The position numbers and the translations under genes are program-made. Positions 14,176-21,797 of a stretch of DNA of 64,000 nt are shown piece after piece. The DNA lies in NCBI GenBank assembly GCA_025360125.1, contig JANYCU010000045.1, positions 310,001 to 374,000 on the forward strand, given 5' to 3'. The stretch is from Armatimonadota bacterium. GTDB lineage: Bacteria; Armatimonadota; Fimbriimonadia; Fimbriimonadales; Fimbriimonadaceae. Numbering within the stretch: position 1 is the first letter of the stretch; each line of letters opens with the position of its first letter. The notes under the pieces were generated by a model that did not search any database, was not told where the DNA came from, and saw only the letters and a program-made list of their open reading frames with translations.

Positions 14176-14322
14176 CTCTCAAATGACTCTCAATTGGAGG
14201 AGAAATGAGAGACATCCAGACACGTCTGTAGATTCAAAATTGTCTCGTTGAACCTACCAAAACTCCCTTGAGATGGTAGTGCTCACAAGGTATGAAGTTT
14301 CGAGTCCTTTCCCGCGCACCAG
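14176..14322 (+). repeat. Element-end repeat, copy A (arm plus tRNA-Leu(GAG) 3' half)
   Basis: Positions 14176-14266 match the arm of copies B and C, with a CTCTCA/TGAGAG hairpin enclosing a GGAGG loop. Positions 14267-14321 match the 3' half of tRNA-Leu(GAG): anticodon loop, GGTAG stem strand, long variable arm, T arm and CCA. Compared with copy C the tRNA part has three substitutions, so it is probably no longer a functional tRNA piece. It is interpreted as an attachment-site remnant closing the left (defence) unit. Confidence 0.8.
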
Positions 14323-14494: not shown

Positions 14495-14938
14495 ATGACG
14501 CGAAAACTTCTAGTCCGATGGCTTGTTCTCGTACTATTCTTTTGCAGTGCGATAGCTTCGGGCGTGTGCGCGACATTGTGCCAGGCCAGAGTTTGTTGTC
14601 ACCGCCATTCTGCGCCAATCGCCGAATCGCCAAAGGTCGAGACTACTTGCTGCTCTCACTGCAAACCATCTAAAACTGGGCTAAACCAAGTCACAGGCCA
14701 GAAGTCCGAAGGCGATGATTGTTGCATGTGGATCGCCAAAAAGGGTGATCCACCCGCTACGACATTAAAGAACTTCCTTACAGTTTCTCCGGAATGGGTG
14801 GCGATAGTGCCCTGCAAGATCGAACTTCGGGAAACGGAAGTCCTTCGGTTAAGCGAGCATCGCGTTCTCTACGAGGACCAGATTCCGCCTGGTGCTCCGT
14901 CCACTACAACACAATCCCGTGCTCCTCCAATTGCTTGA
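14495..14938 (+). CDS. Small exported Cys-rich protein
   Basis: This 147-residue protein has a hydrophobic signal segment (residues 6-26). A metal-ligand-rich stretch follows (ATLCQARVCCHRHS, TTCCSHCKPS, DDCCMW), then a Cys-poor C-terminal half ending in TQSRAPPIA. The Cys/His pattern suggests soft-metal binding outside the cytoplasm; there is no named family that I recognise. The C-terminal (G/S)RAPP tail recurs in the Cys/His-rich protein at 32009-32482 elsewhere in the island, suggesting that they are paralogues. It is the first gene of a plus-strand operon with the outer-membrane-like gene and the YHS-thioredoxin gene. Confidence 0.7.
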   Translation: MTRKLLVRWLVLVLFFCSAIASGVCATLCQARVCCHRHSAPIAESPKVETTCCSHCKPSKTGLNQVTGQKSEGDDCCMWIAKKGDPPATTLKNFLTVSPEWVAIVPCKIELRETEVLRLSEHRVLYEDQIPPGAPSTTTQSRAPPIA

Positions 14939-14983: not shown

Positions 14984-15649
14984 ATGTACAAGAAAGAACT
15001 TACTCTTGCCCTATGCGTCTTAGCTGGTGCATCCTTCGGGCAACAGGTCGGCGGCGACCGCGATATCTTGCCGCAAAATCAAACTGCAACCGGAAAGGAA
15101 GGCCAAGCCCACTGCCCATTGTGAATGGCGGGAGGATACGGGGCCAGTTCGGCCTCGGGTAACTACCGCTGGATGCTCAACACCGTTTGGTGGCCAGGTT
15201 CGCTAACGGAGGACGAAACGTTCCTCTGGTATAGCGTAAATCCACGCCTGACCCTCGGAACCGCGCTTTTGTATAAGCAGAAAGCGTTCCGAGCTCTCGG
15301 CTCGTACCTGCTGTCGCCAGAGACGGATTCACTGCCCAGCACTCACGTCAGCGCTGGTGTTCAAGGAATTGGCACGGGAAATCCAGGCTATTCCTTCACT
15401 GGCGAGAAGAACTGGAACCTGGCTACTGGAAGCTTCAATGTCTTTGCGGGCCTTGCCTACAGAACGAATCGCAAAATCGGTCGCGGAGTCGGTGGGTTCA
15501 AATACAGCTACGGCTCCTACACGATCGGCTACCAAAACGACGGCGTCGAGCAGTACCCGTTCGCATCGGTCAGCCAGGGCCAATGGACCGCCGGTTTCTA
15601 TCTAATCGGCTACAAATCACCCGGTTACATGTTGGGTGTCAGATTCTAA
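14984..15649 (+). CDS. Outer-membrane-like protein with in-frame TGA at codon 47 (pseudogene or CxxU recoding)
   Basis: A start at 14984 gives a clear signal peptide (MYKKELTLALCVLAGASFG) and reads to TGA at 15122-15124. The same frame continues without interruption to 15649 as a Gly/Tyr/aromatic-rich, beta-barrel-like domain. An ATG directly follows the TGA but has no ribosome site or signal peptide, so the two parts look like one gene. The TGA falls in HCPL-stop, the second Cys position of a CxxC motif, so it is either a Cys-to-stop mutation or a selenocysteine codon (CxxU). A hairpin suited to recoding lies just downstream. The barrel ends in an aromatic residue (RF), as outer membrane proteins do. 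Function unknown; metal or copper context. Confidence 0.65.
15139..15157 (+). promoter_or_regulatory. SECIS-like hairpin downstream of the in-frame TGA
   Basis: A 7-bp stem (15139-15145 with 15151-15157, one G-U pair) carries a 5-nt loop AGUUC. The loop begins 21 nt after the UGA and has G at its second position. These values fit the bacterial SECIS consensus (loop 3-14 nt, G in the first two loop positions, 16-37 nt from UGA). GC-rich hairpins arise by chance, so this is only a candidate. Confidence 0.3.
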
Positions 15650-15658
15650 GGAGAATAT

Positions 15659-16318
15659 ATGAAATCAGTCTTTCTAACTACGACAATCGCGCTGTCGGCA
15701 ATGGCATCCGCGCAAGACAAACCTGAACGCATTCCCGATGCCGACCTTCCACCGAGCGCAGTTTGCGCGGTGTGTATCACGCTGGGGACGATGATGACCC
15801 CAGACAAGCCAGTTGCCGGGGTCCGATACCACGGCAAGCGGTATTTCTTTCACAGCAAAGGGATGTTCGACCAGTTCATGAAGGACCCGGACGCTTATTC
15901 CGATCCGGTGCTGCCAAGGTCGATGTCCAAACTCGATCTCAAAGATTCGGGCGGTACTCGATACAATGCGGAATGGTTCAAGGGCAAGACCGTGCTTGTC
16001 GACTTTTGGGCGACGTGGTGCGAACCCTGCCGTCGCATGTTCCCAGTCCTTGGTGACCTGTACAAATCCTATCATCCGAATGGGCTTGAGATCCTTTCGA
16101 TTAGTGAGGACGACAAGAAGGACAAATTCGAAAAATTCATGAAGACCAATCCGTTCTCGAATCCTGCCGTGCTCGATACAAACAGGGCGTCTTTGGCTTG
16201 GCATGTCACGACGATTCCCGCTTACTTTCTGGTGAAAGATGGGCAAATCGTAGCTCAATGGGTGGGAGTTACGGACAAAGATGCGTTCAAGAAAGAAATC
16301 GAGAAAGTCCTGAAGTAA
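15659..16318 (+). CDS. Exported YHS-like domain fused to TlpA-type thioredoxin
   Basis: This 219-residue protein has a signal peptide (residues 1-18). A YHS/TRASH-like metal module follows, with VCAVC at 35-39 and then YHGKRYFFHSKGMFDQFMKDP. From about residue 100 comes a TlpA/ResA thioredoxin domain with FWATWCEPCRR (active-site C121 and C124) and the cis-Pro strand TTIPAYFLVKDG. It should act outside the cytoplasmic membrane as a disulfide or metal-thiol oxidoreductase whose substrate-binding part senses or presents metal. It is 9 nt after the outer-membrane-like gene with a good ribosome site (AGGAG). The fusion is uncommon; its link to the Cys-rich neighbours suggests that it keeps their thiols reduced. 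Confidence 0.82.
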   Translation: MKSVFLTTTIALSAMASAQDKPERIPDADLPPSAVCAVCITLGTMMTPDKPVAGVRYHGKRYFFHSKGMFDQFMKDPDAYSDPVLPRSMSKLDLKDSGGTRYNAEWFKGKTVLVDFWATWCEPCRRMFPVLGDLYKSYHPNGLEILSISEDDKKDKFEKFMKTNPFSNPAVLDTNRASLAWHVTTIPAYFLVKDGQIVAQWVGVTDKDAFKKEIEKVLK

Positions 16319-16332
16319 TTCCTGATCCGACG

Positions 16333-16480
16333 TCTCTCAAAAGTCTCTCAATCGGAGGAGATTTTGAGAGACCTCCAGAGACGGCTGTAGCTTCAGAGTT
16401 GCTTCTTAGAACCCACCAAAACTCCCTTGACGTGGAAGTGCCCACAAAGCGTGAAGTGTTAAAATGTCCTTCCTTCTGAC
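16333..16480 (+). repeat. Element-end repeat, copy B (decayed)
   Basis: The arm (16333-16424) keeps the TCTCTCAA/TTGAGAGA stem and GGAGG loop. The tRNA-Leu-derived part (from about 16426) is degenerate, without the intact T arm or CCA. It lies 14 nt after the stop of the YHS-thioredoxin gene. It would mark the right end of a small 2-kb unit (14323-16480). Confidence 0.65.
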
Positions 16481-17013
16481 AGATTAGTGCTCCGGACTTC
16501 AGACTATGTTCGAAGTAAAAAACAATCCATCAATTCCGACAATAGTTCCTGTTTGCAAACTTCAGTTTCAGTAGATTCAGAAGAAATTCGACATTTTCCA
16601 CAACTGTCCGTGAAAAGTCTGATTTTGCTCCGAACCATTTTAGAAGTAGTGTTTGAACTCAAATACACAAACAATCACAACAACCGACACTGACTTAATT
16701 GCTGTCAGCAAAATTGCGGTAGTCCATAAGGCACCGGGCCTTACGAAAGTAAATCGTCAGTACATGGGGCAGGTAGCACAAATATTTTTGCTTCGAAGTC
16801 CCGTGAAGGCAGACAAAGAAAATTGCGAGCCTTGACGAGTCTCGAAAGGGTCCAGGCCTTTTGTCCCGACGGGCATTCGTCAAATCATTTGCGGAGTCCA
16901 GAGTAATAGATCGGATTGCGTCGTGATGACAACATCTGACCTATGGAAAAAGTATGAAATCTAACCATCATCCAACGCGTCCAGAGTTCTCGTCAGCCAT
17001 CTGGAAAGTCTCA
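16481..17013. other. Intergenic stretch with no recognised gene
   Basis: About 530 bp between copy B and the DUF305 gene. Short open frames on both strands here lack ribosome sites or family resemblance. The stretch is AT-rich at its start and may be the decayed left end of the third unit. Confidence 0.5.
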
Positions 17014-17376
17014 ATGACCAAAGCTTTTCCTATTGCCTACCTACTGACTGGGGCGATATTAGGAAGTGCTTTAATCACTCCGGCAATGGCTCAACATCAT
17101 GACATGAACAAATCAATGCACGGATCTCCGTCAGAAATGATGCATATGAGCATGGAGAAGATGACCCATAACATGGGCGGGATGAAAATGAGTGGGGACA
17201 CCGACCGCGACTTCGCGATGATGATGGCAGAACATCACCTGGGAGCAATTCAAATGGCTGAAATCGAAGTCAAGTCCGGCAAGAATTCCGAACTGAAGGC
17301 AATGGCCAAGAAGATGATCGAAGCTCAGAAGAGCGAAAGAACGAAGCTACTGATGCACGCTAAAATGAAGCATTAA
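17014..17376 (+). CDS. Exported DUF305 (CopM-like) protein
   Basis: This protein has about 120 residues starting at MTKAFPIAYLLTG, the methionine that gives a proper signal peptide ending in TPAMAQ; an upstream ATG at 16954 would place 20 polar residues before it. The mature part is Met/His-rich (HHDMNKSMHG, MMHMSMEKM). It contains the DUF305 core with DFAMMMAEHHLGAIQMAE, where the E-H-H residues and methionines bind copper in cyanobacterial CopM-type proteins. It is predicted periplasmic and copper-binding. It stands alone on the plus strand, convergent with the CopB operon. Confidence 0.82.
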   Translation: MTKAFPIAYLLTGAILGSALITPAMAQHHDMNKSMHGSPSEMMHMSMEKMTHNMGGMKMSGDTDRDFAMMMAEHHLGAIQMAEIEVKSGKNSELKAMAKKMIEAQKSERTKLLMHAKMKH

Positions 17377-17521
17377 CTTCGGGGAGCAGCTTGTCAAGGC
17401 AAATCTAAAGGATTGCCTTGGCTGACCGCTTGAGATTAGAGCGTCTTAAGATTGCTTCCTCATCACTCCCTTTCCCGTCCTCGTCATCGGACAATCCTTT
17501 TTGTCTGCTTCATTTGGTCCA

Positions 17522-17737
17522 TCATTGCTTGTTGGGAGGCTCAGCTAAATATCCACCCAAGAGAAGTTGCTCGCGCATCTCTAGCGGAGTAGCTGGGGCT
17601 TCGTAGAGAACGTCCACAACGAGATCTTCTTTATGAACGTGCGCTACCCGAACACCGTCGATCATCTCGAGGGCATTTTTAACGTTATGGACACAACCAT
17701 CGCAATGCACGTTTTGAAGTTGGATAGTTTCTTTCAC
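17522..17737 (-). CDS. HMA-domain metallochaperone (CopZ-like)
   Basis: This 71-residue HMA domain has the metal motif HCDGC at residues 11-15 (C12, C15), replacing the more usual MxCxxC with HCxxC. The beta-alpha-beta-beta-alpha-beta pattern is complete. It likely carries Cu(I) or another soft metal to the P-type ATPase encoded upstream in the same operon. It is the last gene of the leftward operon that begins at 23212, overlapping the preceding gene by 4 nt. Confidence 0.85.
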   Translation of the reverse strand: MKETIQLQNVHCDGCVHNVKNALEMIDGVRVAHVHKEDLVVDVLYEAPATPLEMREQLLLGGYLAEPPNKQ

Positions 17738-18405
17738 TTGGCTGGGCCCCCTTTGTCCTGAGTTCCGAGAGTCACCTTTGGAAAGAACCGCGGCACTCTC
17801 TTCGCGTATGTCTCATATTTGCTCTGCAGTTCGGCTCGTACATCCGCCTCCTCCCTCAAGGCTAGTCGTGTATACATCACGACCAGAATCGGAAACATCA
17901 CTAGTGTTATGATCGTTGGCCATTGGAGTAAGAAGCCAAACATGACCAAAATAAAGCCTGCGTATTGAGGATGGCGGATGATTCGATACGGCCCGTTAAC
18001 CGCAAGAGTCTTGTCCTTCTGGGCGCGGAGGAGTACGCTCCACGCCGAGGAAACGATCCAAAAGCCTCCAATAATGAATATCTCACTTGCAATATGGATC
18101 GGATTCCAGTGAGGATCACCCTTCCAGCCAAGGACGGAATACCAGAGATGACCCATATCGTGGGTGTATAAGTTCATCCCTGGAAACCTGGACTGAAGCC
18201 AGGGAGCTAAGAAATAAATGGTCAGCGGAAATCCATACATTTCAGTGAATAGCGCGATGATAAAGGCCGAAAAGGCTCCAAATGACCGCCAGTCTCGCTT
18301 CGACTGAGGTTTAGCAAAGCTAAAGGCGAACATGATGAAGAGAAGGCTATTGATGATGACGAGGGGCCATAGGCCGTAACCGGGGGTAGAGGATTCGTGT
18401 GGCAT
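17734..18405 (-). CDS. Membrane isoprenylcysteine methyltransferase-like protein
   Basis: This 223-residue integral membrane protein has about six hydrophobic segments. Its C-terminal NGPYRIIRHPQYAGFILVMF is the SAM-binding signature of the ICMT/PEMT family. Bacterial members of unknown substrate occur repeatedly in copper operons beside DUF2933 and HMA genes, as here. It is tightly packed, with a 4-nt overlap with the HMA gene and 8 nt after the DUF2933 gene. The true substrate is unknown. Confidence 0.8.
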   Translation of the reverse strand: MPHESSTPGYGLWPLVIINSLLFIMFAFSFAKPQSKRDWRSFGAFSAFIIALFTEMYGFPLTIYFLAPWLQSRFPGMNLYTHDMGHLWYSVLGWKGDPHWNPIHIASEIFIIGGFWIVSSAWSVLLRAQKDKTLAVNGPYRIIRHPQYAGFILVMFGFLLQWPTIITLVMFPILVVMYTRLALREEADVRAELQSKYETYAKRVPRFFPKVTLGTQDKGGPAK

Positions 18406-18413
18406 GGTAACTC

Positions 18414-18659
18414 CTAGTGTTGATGACCGCCGGAAGAGCCAGAGTCACCCTTGTTTTCAGCTTCAGCATCTCCATCGTGGGAACCGTGCCCCTTGTGCAT
18501 GAAAAAGTGCATGAATGGGCAAATCAGCAGAAATCCATAAGGGAGAAACCCGAAGAAATGTGCCCGATGCTCAGTTAGGAGAAAGAAGAGCAAAACGGCG
18601 AGAAGTGCTATAGCGCAGGCTCCGGGCCAGGTTCGCCAGAAGCTGGGAACGGTTTTCAT
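18414..18659 (-). CDS. DUF2933 small membrane protein
   Basis: This 81-residue protein has two hydrophobic segments (about 12-28 and 34-50), the family stretch CPFMHFFMHKGHG and a His/Gly/acidic tail ending in GGHQH. DUF2933 proteins are short, His-tailed membrane proteins found in copper and heavy-metal operons; their function is not established. The ATG overlaps a possible small upstream frame by 4 nt. Confidence 0.82.
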   Translation of the reverse strand: MKTVPSFWRTWPGACAIALLAVLLFFLLTEHRAHFFGFLPYGFLLICPFMHFFMHKGHGSHDGDAEAENKGDSGSSGGHQH

Positions 18660-18790
18660 CCCTTACGTCCTTTACTTTCCCAGACATCGCAGTGTGGGGC
18701 CAAAACCAACCACATTAACCAGGCGACCGACCTGCTTGAGACGAAGCTCACCTTGCCGGCCCGTGACAGATTGAATTCCTGAGTGTTCAT
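18656..18790 (-). CDS. Possible 44-residue small protein in the copper operon
   Basis: A short frame starting at ATG (18790, GGG about 9 nt upstream) contains one hydrophobic stretch (VAWLMWLVLAPH). It ends in a TGA that overlaps the DUF2933 start as ATGA. The translational-coupling geometry is the only support; composition is otherwise unremarkable and no family is recognised. It may be chance. Confidence 0.28.
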   Translation of the reverse strand: MNTQEFNLSRAGKVSFVSSRSVAWLMWLVLAPHCDVWESKGRKG

Positions 18791-18801
18791 AGTGTTTTGC
18801 C

Positions 18802-19599
18802 CTACCATTTGAGATCGAATTGGAGAATGAACCTTGAGCCAAAGTCTTTGCGGGAGCTGATGGGCGTCTGGTAGGCAATCCCCACCATAGAGTTTTTGCC
18901 TGTCCTAAATTTCGGACCAGCCAAGATGTCTAAGGTCGGCATTTCCCTTAACTCGGCCGTTCCTATCAGTTCAACGATTGGAAAGAAGCTGGGCATTGTC
19001 TGGCAAACGTAGGCGATACTTCCTTCGAACTTTCTCTCGAAAAGGTTGTAGTGAAATGCGCCATCGAAAGTGCCGTGCTTCTGGGCAAGAGCTGACGAGA
19101 AGCCAATAACAGTTTTGACTCCGCTCCCCGATCGACGGGTGGGAAACTCAATTTCAAGCATCGGACTAATTCCGCTCATACCGTCCATGCTTCGGATCGC
19201 GGCGTATTGGAACATCACTTCCGCTTCATTGCCAGTCGTGAATTCGTCGCTCCGAAAGTTCACGCCTAGACGATCCGACAAACCACACATATATTGAAAT
19301 GAGAAGTCAGGCGTCGAACGCCCTCCGGCACTCGTTCTCAAGCCAGATAAGCTCAAGCTATGGGTGCCAAATGCTTGGGGCATTCCCATATGGGTAAAGA
19401 AGGGCATGACCATTTCATACTGCTCACCCATCTGCATCTTGTCATTAGACATCTTGTCCTGGGGCATTTTGCCGCTTGGAATGTCTTGATGATTATTGTC
19501 TTGCTGAATCGTTTTTGAGTCAGGAGTTTCAGACGCCGAAGCTAAGCCGGACGTGGTCAAAAGTAGTATTGACCAAAGTAATGGTTGTTGTAGTTTCAA
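18802..19599 (-). CDS. Outer-membrane beta-barrel-like protein with Met/His-rich N-terminus
   Basis: This 265-residue protein has a signal peptide ([20 protein letters not shown]). A Met/Lys/Asp-rich segment follows ([18 protein letters not shown]), then an alternating beta pattern to a terminal aromatic residue (DLKW), typical of outer membrane barrels. It overlaps the P-type ATPase by 4 nt, so metal export to or through the outer membrane is plausible. No specific family is recognised beyond transporter-like OMPs of copper clusters. Confidence 0.65.
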
Positions 19600-21797
19600 T
19601 TGGAACCTCGTAATACAGGGGTTGCAACAGCCGACCCCAAATTCACAAAACGCTTTTCTGTACGCTTTAGCAGGACGGCGTTGGTCGCAACGAACACCGA
19701 CGACATCGACATTAGCAAAGCACTAATCTCGGGCTTAAGACTCCAACCAAGGCTGGAATAAAAAACACCCGCAGCAACCGGTATGGCGGCAAGGTTGTAA
19801 ACGCTTGCCCAAACCAAGTTCTGCTTCATCTTGAGCACCGTCGCCTTGCTCAGGATGATGGCGTTTACCGCGTCAAGTGGATCGGATCGCATGAGCACGA
19901 TGTCTGCGGTCTCAATCGCAACGTCGGTTCCTGCGCCAATCGCGATCCCAATGTCTGCCTGAGCGAGCGCTGGAGCATCGTTAATGCCATCACCGACCAT
20001 GGCAACAAATTTGCCTTCGGTCTGAAGTTGTTTAACATACTCAGCTTTCTTTGCAGGTAATACTTCGGAGAATACGCGTTTGATGCCAACTTCTTTTGCG
20101 ACCGCGTCACCAGTCGCCTTGTTGTCACCGGTCATAAGCACTACCTCGATTCCGAGATCCGTCATCTCCTTTACGAATCGACCAGCATTGGCCTTGATGG
20201 GATCAGCGGCGGCAAGGATGCCAGAGAATTTGCCATCGATGCCAACGTACATCAGAGTCCTGGCTTTGCTAAGGAGGTCTTTTTCAGCCTCATCGATTCC
20301 CGCCAAGCTCACACCTTGTTCTTCGAGAAGCTTTTTACGACCCACGAGAACTGTCTTGCCTTCGATCGTTGCCTTAAGTCCAAGCCCAGTTACGTTTTCG
20401 AAGTTTGACACTGCGAGCAGATTCAGGTCCTTTTCTTTTGCCGCTTCAATAATTGAAAGCGCCAGTGGATGGCTTGAATTTGCCTCTGCCGATGCAGCGT
20501 ACTGGACCAATTGAGCCGCATCTTGGCCATCTGTGACTTTGATGTCGGTAACTTTTGGCTTGCCCTCCGTTAAGGTTCCGGTCTTGTCGACGACAATCGC
20601 TTGGACTTTTGCCGTTTGTTCAAGTGTGACGGCATCTTTAATTAGCACATTGTGCTTTGCGCCAAGACCAATACCGACCGCAACCGCAGTGGGCGTAGCT
20701 AGCCCAAGTGCATCGGGACATGCAATAACAATAGCCGAGATCGCGAAGGTCAGGGCGGCCGCAAATGGAATGCCTGCCCCAAACTTCCACGCGATAAATG
20801 TGATAAGGCCAGATCCGGTAGCAATCACGACCAAATATGCGGCAGCACGGTCTGCGATCCGCTGACCTGGCGCTTTCGAACTTTGCGCCGTTTCAACCAA
20901 TTTCGTGATTTGTGCAAGAACGGTATCTCCACCTACTTTGGTTGCCTTCAAATGAAGGACCCCGGAAGTGTTAACAGAACCTCCGACAACCATGTCGCCA
21001 GGCCCCTTCTCAACAGGCAAGCTTTCACCGGTAACCAGAGCCTCGTCCACTGGGGATGCGCCTTCCGTGACTTGGCCATCAACGGGAATTTTTTCACCCG
21101 GCTTTACAATTAAAGTGTCACCAACAACAACATCCTTGGTTGCTATCTTTTGCTCTTGACCATCGCGAATCACGACCGCCATTGGTGGAACTAAATTGAA
21201 GAGAGCCGTGAGGGCATCGGACGTACCTCGACGGGACTTCATCTCCATCCAATGGCCGAAAAGGACAAATGTCACAAGCATTGCCGATGCCGCGTAGAAC
21301 ACCATCGAGTCTGGCGCAAGGCTCAAATAGACGCTGGATAAATAGGACGCCAAGACGCCCAACGCAATAAGGACAGACATGTCTAATTTGCGGTTCTGGA
21401 GTGCGAAGTAACTGCCTTGAATAAAAATCCAGCCGCAGTAGAATACGACAGGCGTGGTCAACAGGAAGAGAATGAGATGCTGAAGATGGCCCGCTATCGG
21501 GACCGGAAGTCCCGGAATCTCGCCCGAGAGCCACGCGATCGGAATGGTGAGGCCAAGCGCAACCCAAAAGCGATTTCTTATGTCGATTTCCATTGACGCG
21601 GCCATCTTAGGATCAGACATCATTCCTAGGTGCTGATGACCAGAGTGCGAAGTCATATTCATTCCAGGCATGGCACTATGGTCATGTGCTGGTTGCTGCC
21701 CATCCGTCCTCGATGGGGGCTTCGACATGTCCATCGGTGGCATGGAGCTAAGGTCATGTCCTTGATGGTGAGCATGGCTATGTTCGTCTGTTTTCAT
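19596..21797 (-). CDS. CopB-like heavy-metal P1B-type ATPase with CPD motif
   Basis: This 733-residue P-type ATPase has a His/Met-rich N-terminus (residues 1-70, no CxxC HMA domain), eight predicted membrane segments, TGES at 256-259, DKTGT at 404-408, a SSHPLA nucleotide-binding motif and GDGINDAP. The transmembrane metal motif reads CPD (360-362, [13 protein letters not shown]), instead of CPC (CopA) or CPH (CopB). This change in membrane ligands may shift metal preference; the His-rich tail and neighbours still argue for copper. It is in a leftward operon, overlapping the CBS gene and the outer membrane gene by 4 nt each. Confidence 0.92.

Follow-up and report, generated by a model that had tools for sequence, protein, structure and literature searches.

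The window analysed here is the whole 64,000-nucleotide stretch of a contig from an Armatimonadota bacterium (genome 4.13 Mb, 98.6% complete). The locus of interest within it is a likely operon of three genes, encoding a Cys-rich secreted protein, a barrel protein whose reading frame contains a TGA, and a YHS-like/TlpA protein (Table 1). The central frame reads MYKKELTLALCVLAGASFGQQ...QAHCPL-TGA-MAGGYGASSASG... with 174 residues up to a TAA; the N-terminus of its product is hydrophobic and signal-peptide-like, and the final residue is Phe. The codon directly 3' of the TGA is ATG in the window, so a gene finder would report the 174-residue ORF instead. The earlier note had read the frame from HCPL through the TGA into those 174 residues, with the TGA as the second position of a CxxC pair (CxxU) and a 7-bp hairpin with loop AGUUC placed 21 nt downstream. 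Translation of the interval bears out the frame, the Cys codon of nine homologues bears out the position in the motif, and the coordinates of the hairpin agree.

Table 1. Features of the probable selenoprotein locus and of the Sec machinery; positions with a C prefix lie elsewhere in the source genome, all others are window positions.
Feature	Position	Strand	Details
Cys-rich secreted protein of 147 aa that ends in RAPPIA	14495-14938	+	ORF, 11 Cys; first gene of likely operon
Sec-containing barrel protein (proposed)	14984-15649	+	221 residues if the TGA encodes Sec; CPLU motif; 12-strand barrel model
Putative redox motif C-P-L-U, codons TGC CCA TTG TGA	15113-15124	+	Cys-Pro-Leu/Ile/Val-Cys in nine homologues
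Putative Sec-encoding TGA, residue 47	15122-15124	+	TGA in 39/48 members, Cys codon in 9/48
Candidate upper stem-loop of the SECIS, 7 bp of which one is G-U	15139-15157	+	Covariation; -13.4 kcal/mol
Apical loop AGUUC, presumed SelB contact	15146-15150	+	Loop codons frozen as AGT/GGT + TCG among Sec members only
Periplasmic-type TlpA/ResA-like thioredoxin with N-terminal YHS-like domain	15659-16318	+	Pfam
selA	C44:113906-115129		412 bits
selB	C10:106966-108786		343 bits
selD	C56:110090-110998 (L024)		358 bits; one in-frame TGA within gene
tRNA-Sec (selC)	C26:17556-17645		68 bits, anticodon TCA

The bacterial SECIS (bSECIS) consensus allows a loop of 3-9 nt, a stem of 4-16 bp and a spacing of 16-37 nt, with a G within the first two loop positions and an MFE of at most -7.5 (PMC13188914, Fig 2), and the window hairpin lies within all of these limits (5 nt, 7 bp, 21 nt, AGUUC and -13.4 kcal/mol). 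Folded alone, this hairpin gives a z of -3.5 against dinucleotide shuffles. In the 29 Sec members in which the spacing between the UGA and the hairpin is unchanged, 91.6% of the stem cells are paired, six of the seven stem pairs change on both sides with pairing retained, and the covariation score is 0.468 as against 0.133 for shuffled versions, with none of 500 shuffles as high and slid versions reaching at most 0.156. The codons of the loop are frozen, with Ser encoded by AGT in 13/13 cases (background 0.10), Gly by GGT in 16/16 (background 0.145) and Ser by TCG in 23/24 (background 0.29), a pattern absent from the Cys forms; the corresponding p values, 1e-11 to 4e-14, treat the genes as independent though they are related, yet divergence among the members is deep. 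The folding energy compared with synonymous-codon shuffles is weak (mean z -0.75 in Sec forms and -0.33 in Cys forms), and the case for a SECIS element, as read from the aligned genes, rests on covariation and frozen loop codons, not on that energy. The hairpin is beyond chance, since tens of genomes keep it together with the TGA and the frame that follows. It is not seen at the equivalent place in the members that have diverged furthest (L055 and L113-L118 among them), and no Rfam family matches it. Scanning the genome for a TGA plus the loop sequence gave 28 matches versus 32 in the control, so the loop sequence by itself cannot find further selenoproteins in this genome.

Homologues were found in 30 genomes in a search of 101 relatives, and a profile search across Armatimonadota gave matches in 86 of 291 genomes, a sister family included. 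Among 48 distinct members that bear the motif, TGA occupies the second motif position in 39, 11 of which also have TGA at the first, and the nine Cys members read CPLC, CPIC or CPVC. A scan with a Cys-only pattern gave four Cys forms, including those of Armatimonadetes bacterium Uphvl-Ar2, a Chthonomonas MAG and a Fimbriimonas MAG, and the tree requires that Sec and Cys forms have interchanged independently at least twice. Five Sec pairs have dN/dS ratios of 0.02-0.20 in the region after the motif and three Cys pairs ratios of 0.02-0.04, with dS close to saturation in the more distant pairs. Outer-membrane proteins end, as a general rule, in an aromatic residue, and most members of the family have an aromatic C-terminal residue. 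In two distant members (L143 and L144, from G100 and G107) GGPL replaces C/U-P-L-U and the motif is lost; G100 has a tRNA-Sec match.

Matches to the family profile that lack the CPLC motif carry a different TGA motif, which in the 20 genes read is UTGU (VPTUTGUPGEG) in 15 and UPGU, UPSU, CPGU, UAGC or CAGU in one each. These sister genes, which are found with the same profile, are similar in length, have the loop [A/G]GUUC (the hairpin reading CCTC[A/G]GTTCGGGG in most) and share an operon with the CPLU form in the source genome; they differ in that most of them have two TGAs at a distance of three codons, and in having TUTGUPGEG in place of CPLU. The sister loci (L088 6117-6749 at C44 of the source genome, L034, L128-L142 and L145-L147) encode barrels with signal peptides, and the members scanned match no Pfam or NCBIfam family; L131 comes from G007, a genome of the same genus as the source genome. 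The UPGU barrel at L134 is preceded in frame by a YHS domain, and tRNA-Sec was not found in the genome of this locus (G155, 85% complete). The UTGU barrels apparently constitute, judging from these genes, a second undescribed selenoprotein family.

SelD is itself a selenoprotein in other cases, and the selD gene of the source genome, with its in-frame TGA, probably encodes a selenoprotein as well. Within the 101 relatives searched, a tRNA-Sec match (66-81 bits) occurs in 23/23 genomes with TGA forms and in 0/8 genomes with Cys forms only, which hold only weak tRNA-like matches of ~50 bits or less; the chance of such a split is about 1 in 8 million for independent genomes, and the genomes here are related. 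Both states occur in one genus, in which G168 has CPLU and tRNA-Sec, and G022 and G051 have CPLC without it. Another 12 genomes with TGA forms include 10 with tRNA-Sec, which was not found in G162 (88% complete) or G169 (77% complete).

The earlier note had proposed as checks a search for Cys at the TGA position in homologues, a look for selA, selB, selC and selD and a comparison of dN/dS on the two sides of the TGA, and had named further disabling mutations after the TGA in relatives as a sign against its reading. The outcomes agree with that reading: Cys does stand at this position in nine members, selA, selB, selC and selD are all present in the genome, the frame 3' of the TGA evolves under purifying selection in all five Sec pairs, and the relatives carry no such disabling mutations. 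We put the probability that UGA 15122-15124 is recoded as selenocysteine, in a gene that belongs to one unnamed family of Sec-containing barrel proteins, at about 93%. SelB and tRNA-Sec would insert the residue at this UGA, guided by the hairpin 21 nt 3' of it.

The product is predicted to be exported, and an AlphaFold2 model built on a five-row alignment predicts a disordered N-terminus and a barrel of 12 β-strands, the latter with a pLDDT around 80. The motif is modelled in a short helix ahead of strand 1, with a pLDDT of about 50-65. The best matches among solved structures are the outer-membrane barrels FapF, KdgM, EstA, NanC, NalP and COG4313 (Z 13-15). The KdgM/NanC porins, FapF and NalP resemble the model in having 12 strands, with a VIA Z of 14-15 across 151-168 residues, but at about 10% identity and without the Sec/Cys motif the likeness is one of fold only. 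Sequence libraries place the family nowhere: the window protein has no Pfam match above the gathering cut-off, none of 30 aligned members exceeds any family's curated cut-off in NCBIfam release 20.0, the same 30 have no credible match in either library beyond weak single-member Pfam matches (DUF2490 at 0.005, PagL at 0.02, and OMP_b-brl), and a sequence search of the PDB gave no match. The barrel is probably located in the outer membrane, with the motif presumably on the periplasmic side.

A 2026 review tabulates 119 selenoprotein families, none of which combines a CPLU-type motif with a barrel (PMC13188914, Table 1). The bacterial CxxU selenoproteins described there share with the window family a UGA as the second residue of CxxC, a SECIS element within 16-37 nt, Cys homologues and the sel genes, whereas the window family lacks the thioredoxin fold and lies outside the 119 families. 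Two tabulated selenoproteins of the outer membrane, GSU2204/MtrB-PioB (NF041027) and an FCYXU-type TonB receptor (NF049945), likewise have Sec in a predicted outer-membrane barrel (PMC13188914), but neither NF041027 nor NF049945 was matched in the NCBIfam scan of the 30 members, and the window family differs from both in its 12 strands, in the length of about 180 residues after the motif and in showing no cytochrome or TonB context. The literature covered, which excludes subscription papers and preprints, yielded no paper that links Fimbriimonas to a selenoprotein or Armatimonadota to selenocysteine, so the family is likely, but not proven, to be new.

The first gene of the operon, whose product has no Pfam match, has a counterpart in many relatives, where it likewise precedes the barrel gene. 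The third gene begins 9 nt past the stop of the barrel gene, and its Pfam matches are AhpC-TSA (2e-15), Thioredoxin (2e-13) and YHS (1.5e-5, under the curated cut-off); a YHS-thioredoxin also neighbours the family at L088, L089 and L095, and the gene order of the window is identical in G016 (L089). A second locus of the source genome, at C44 (L088 6117-8758), encodes in this order a UTGU barrel, a YHS/TlpA protein, a Cys-rich protein, a metallothionein-like peptide of 67 residues (L088 7935-8138) and a CPLU barrel. A metallothionein-like or RxPP-ending Cys-rich gene lies upstream of 18/39 Sec members as against 14/444 control ORFs (p 7e-14), most of the 14 positive controls being family genes themselves or their neighbours; for about half of the Sec members, no Cys-rich gene was found in the scanned stretch. 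Small peptides of this metallothionein-like type, 38-90 aa long and with 12-15 Cys, are also encoded immediately 5' of the Sec barrel at L067, L068, L070, L033, L038 and L075. A MerR-type regulator gene stands upstream of several UxxU barrels and one CPLU barrel (L103, L109, L111, L112 and L115), and at one UxxU locus a small thioredoxin-like protein is encoded between the MerR-type gene and the barrel. In the window, a copper-type island at 16954-21797, encoding DUF305, HMA-domain, ICMT-like and DUF2933 proteins, a P-type metal ATPase and an unassigned 265-aa exported protein, adjoins the operon. A 93-nt direct repeat, 81% identical between its copies at 14206-14298 and 16365-16457, stands on both sides of the three-gene operon and is possibly an intergenic element or the trace of an insertion. 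Searches of plasmid records gave no match.

The proposed product is an exported 12-strand barrel, probably of the outer membrane, in which CPLU lies just ahead of the first strand. The CxxU pair may serve there as a redox switch or as a ligand for soft metals; the co-encoded YHS-TlpA thioredoxin, as a putative partner, would keep the pair reduced, and the barrel would act in concert with the products of the adjacent genes for Cys-rich and metallothionein-like proteins. A role in metal and thiol (redox) homeostasis of the envelope is given even odds. The protein may instead be a selenoprotein that forms a porin-like channel, with CxxU used for folding or disulfide anchoring and no metal or redox role in the outer membrane, a reading to which we assign a substantial chance, if somewhat short of one in two. 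The fold matches are to general outer-membrane barrels, the KdgM and NanC porins included, and metal-related neighbours are absent at about half of the loci, both of which speak for such a channel; the strong association with metallothionein-like or Cys-rich genes and YHS-thioredoxins, the MerR-type regulators at UxxU forms and the YHS domain fused to one sister barrel argue for the metal and thiol role.

Three further readings dispense with selenocysteine altogether. A genuine stop, with a short exported peptide ending at the TGA and the barrel restarting at the following ATG, finds that ATG in the window and in L027, but the codon after the TGA is elsewhere GTC, GTG, GCC, ACG, CCC or others, the barrel would be left without a signal peptide, and neither the SECIS loop nor the single-frame Cys forms would be accounted for; this restart is very improbable and was rejected. 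A plain TGC/TGT-to-TGA nonsense mutation, producing a pseudogene beside a chance hairpin, requires a single base change from a Cys codon, and Cys forms do exist; it is rejected as scarcely credible because it cannot explain a TGA conserved over large divergence in 39 genes with an open, selected frame beyond it, the covarying hairpin or the co-occurrence of TGA forms with tRNA-Sec. Decoding of TGA as another residue, through a code change or general readthrough, fits the frame that stays open through the TGA but is rejected with equal firmness, as homologues only ever have Cys at the aligned position, the gene contains a SECIS element, tRNA-Sec tracks the trait, and TGA terminates other genes of the family and the Cys-rich gene upstream in the window.

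Selenocysteine insertion, the preferred reading, would enlarge a catalogue of about 119 selenoprotein families by two that are apparently undescribed, one of them containing two Sec residues. As gene callers halt at the TGA or begin past it, Sec barrel genes are likely to be mis-annotated. The change from Sec to Cys together with the loss of tRNA-Sec, which is seen within one genus too, constitutes a natural experiment on the retention of selenocysteine. More speculatively, and on balance doubtfully, Armatimonadota might possess a dedicated selenium-using system for metal handling in the envelope, in which Sec barrels of two related types (CPLU/UPLU and UTGU) would work with metallothionein-like, Cys-rich, YHS-TlpA and, in part, MerR partners, and selenols placed where a channel opens in the outer membrane would bind or gate soft metal ions. 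With Sec in a barrel that is probably of the outer membrane and is encoded next to metallothionein-like genes, a link between selenium and metals in the envelope becomes testable.
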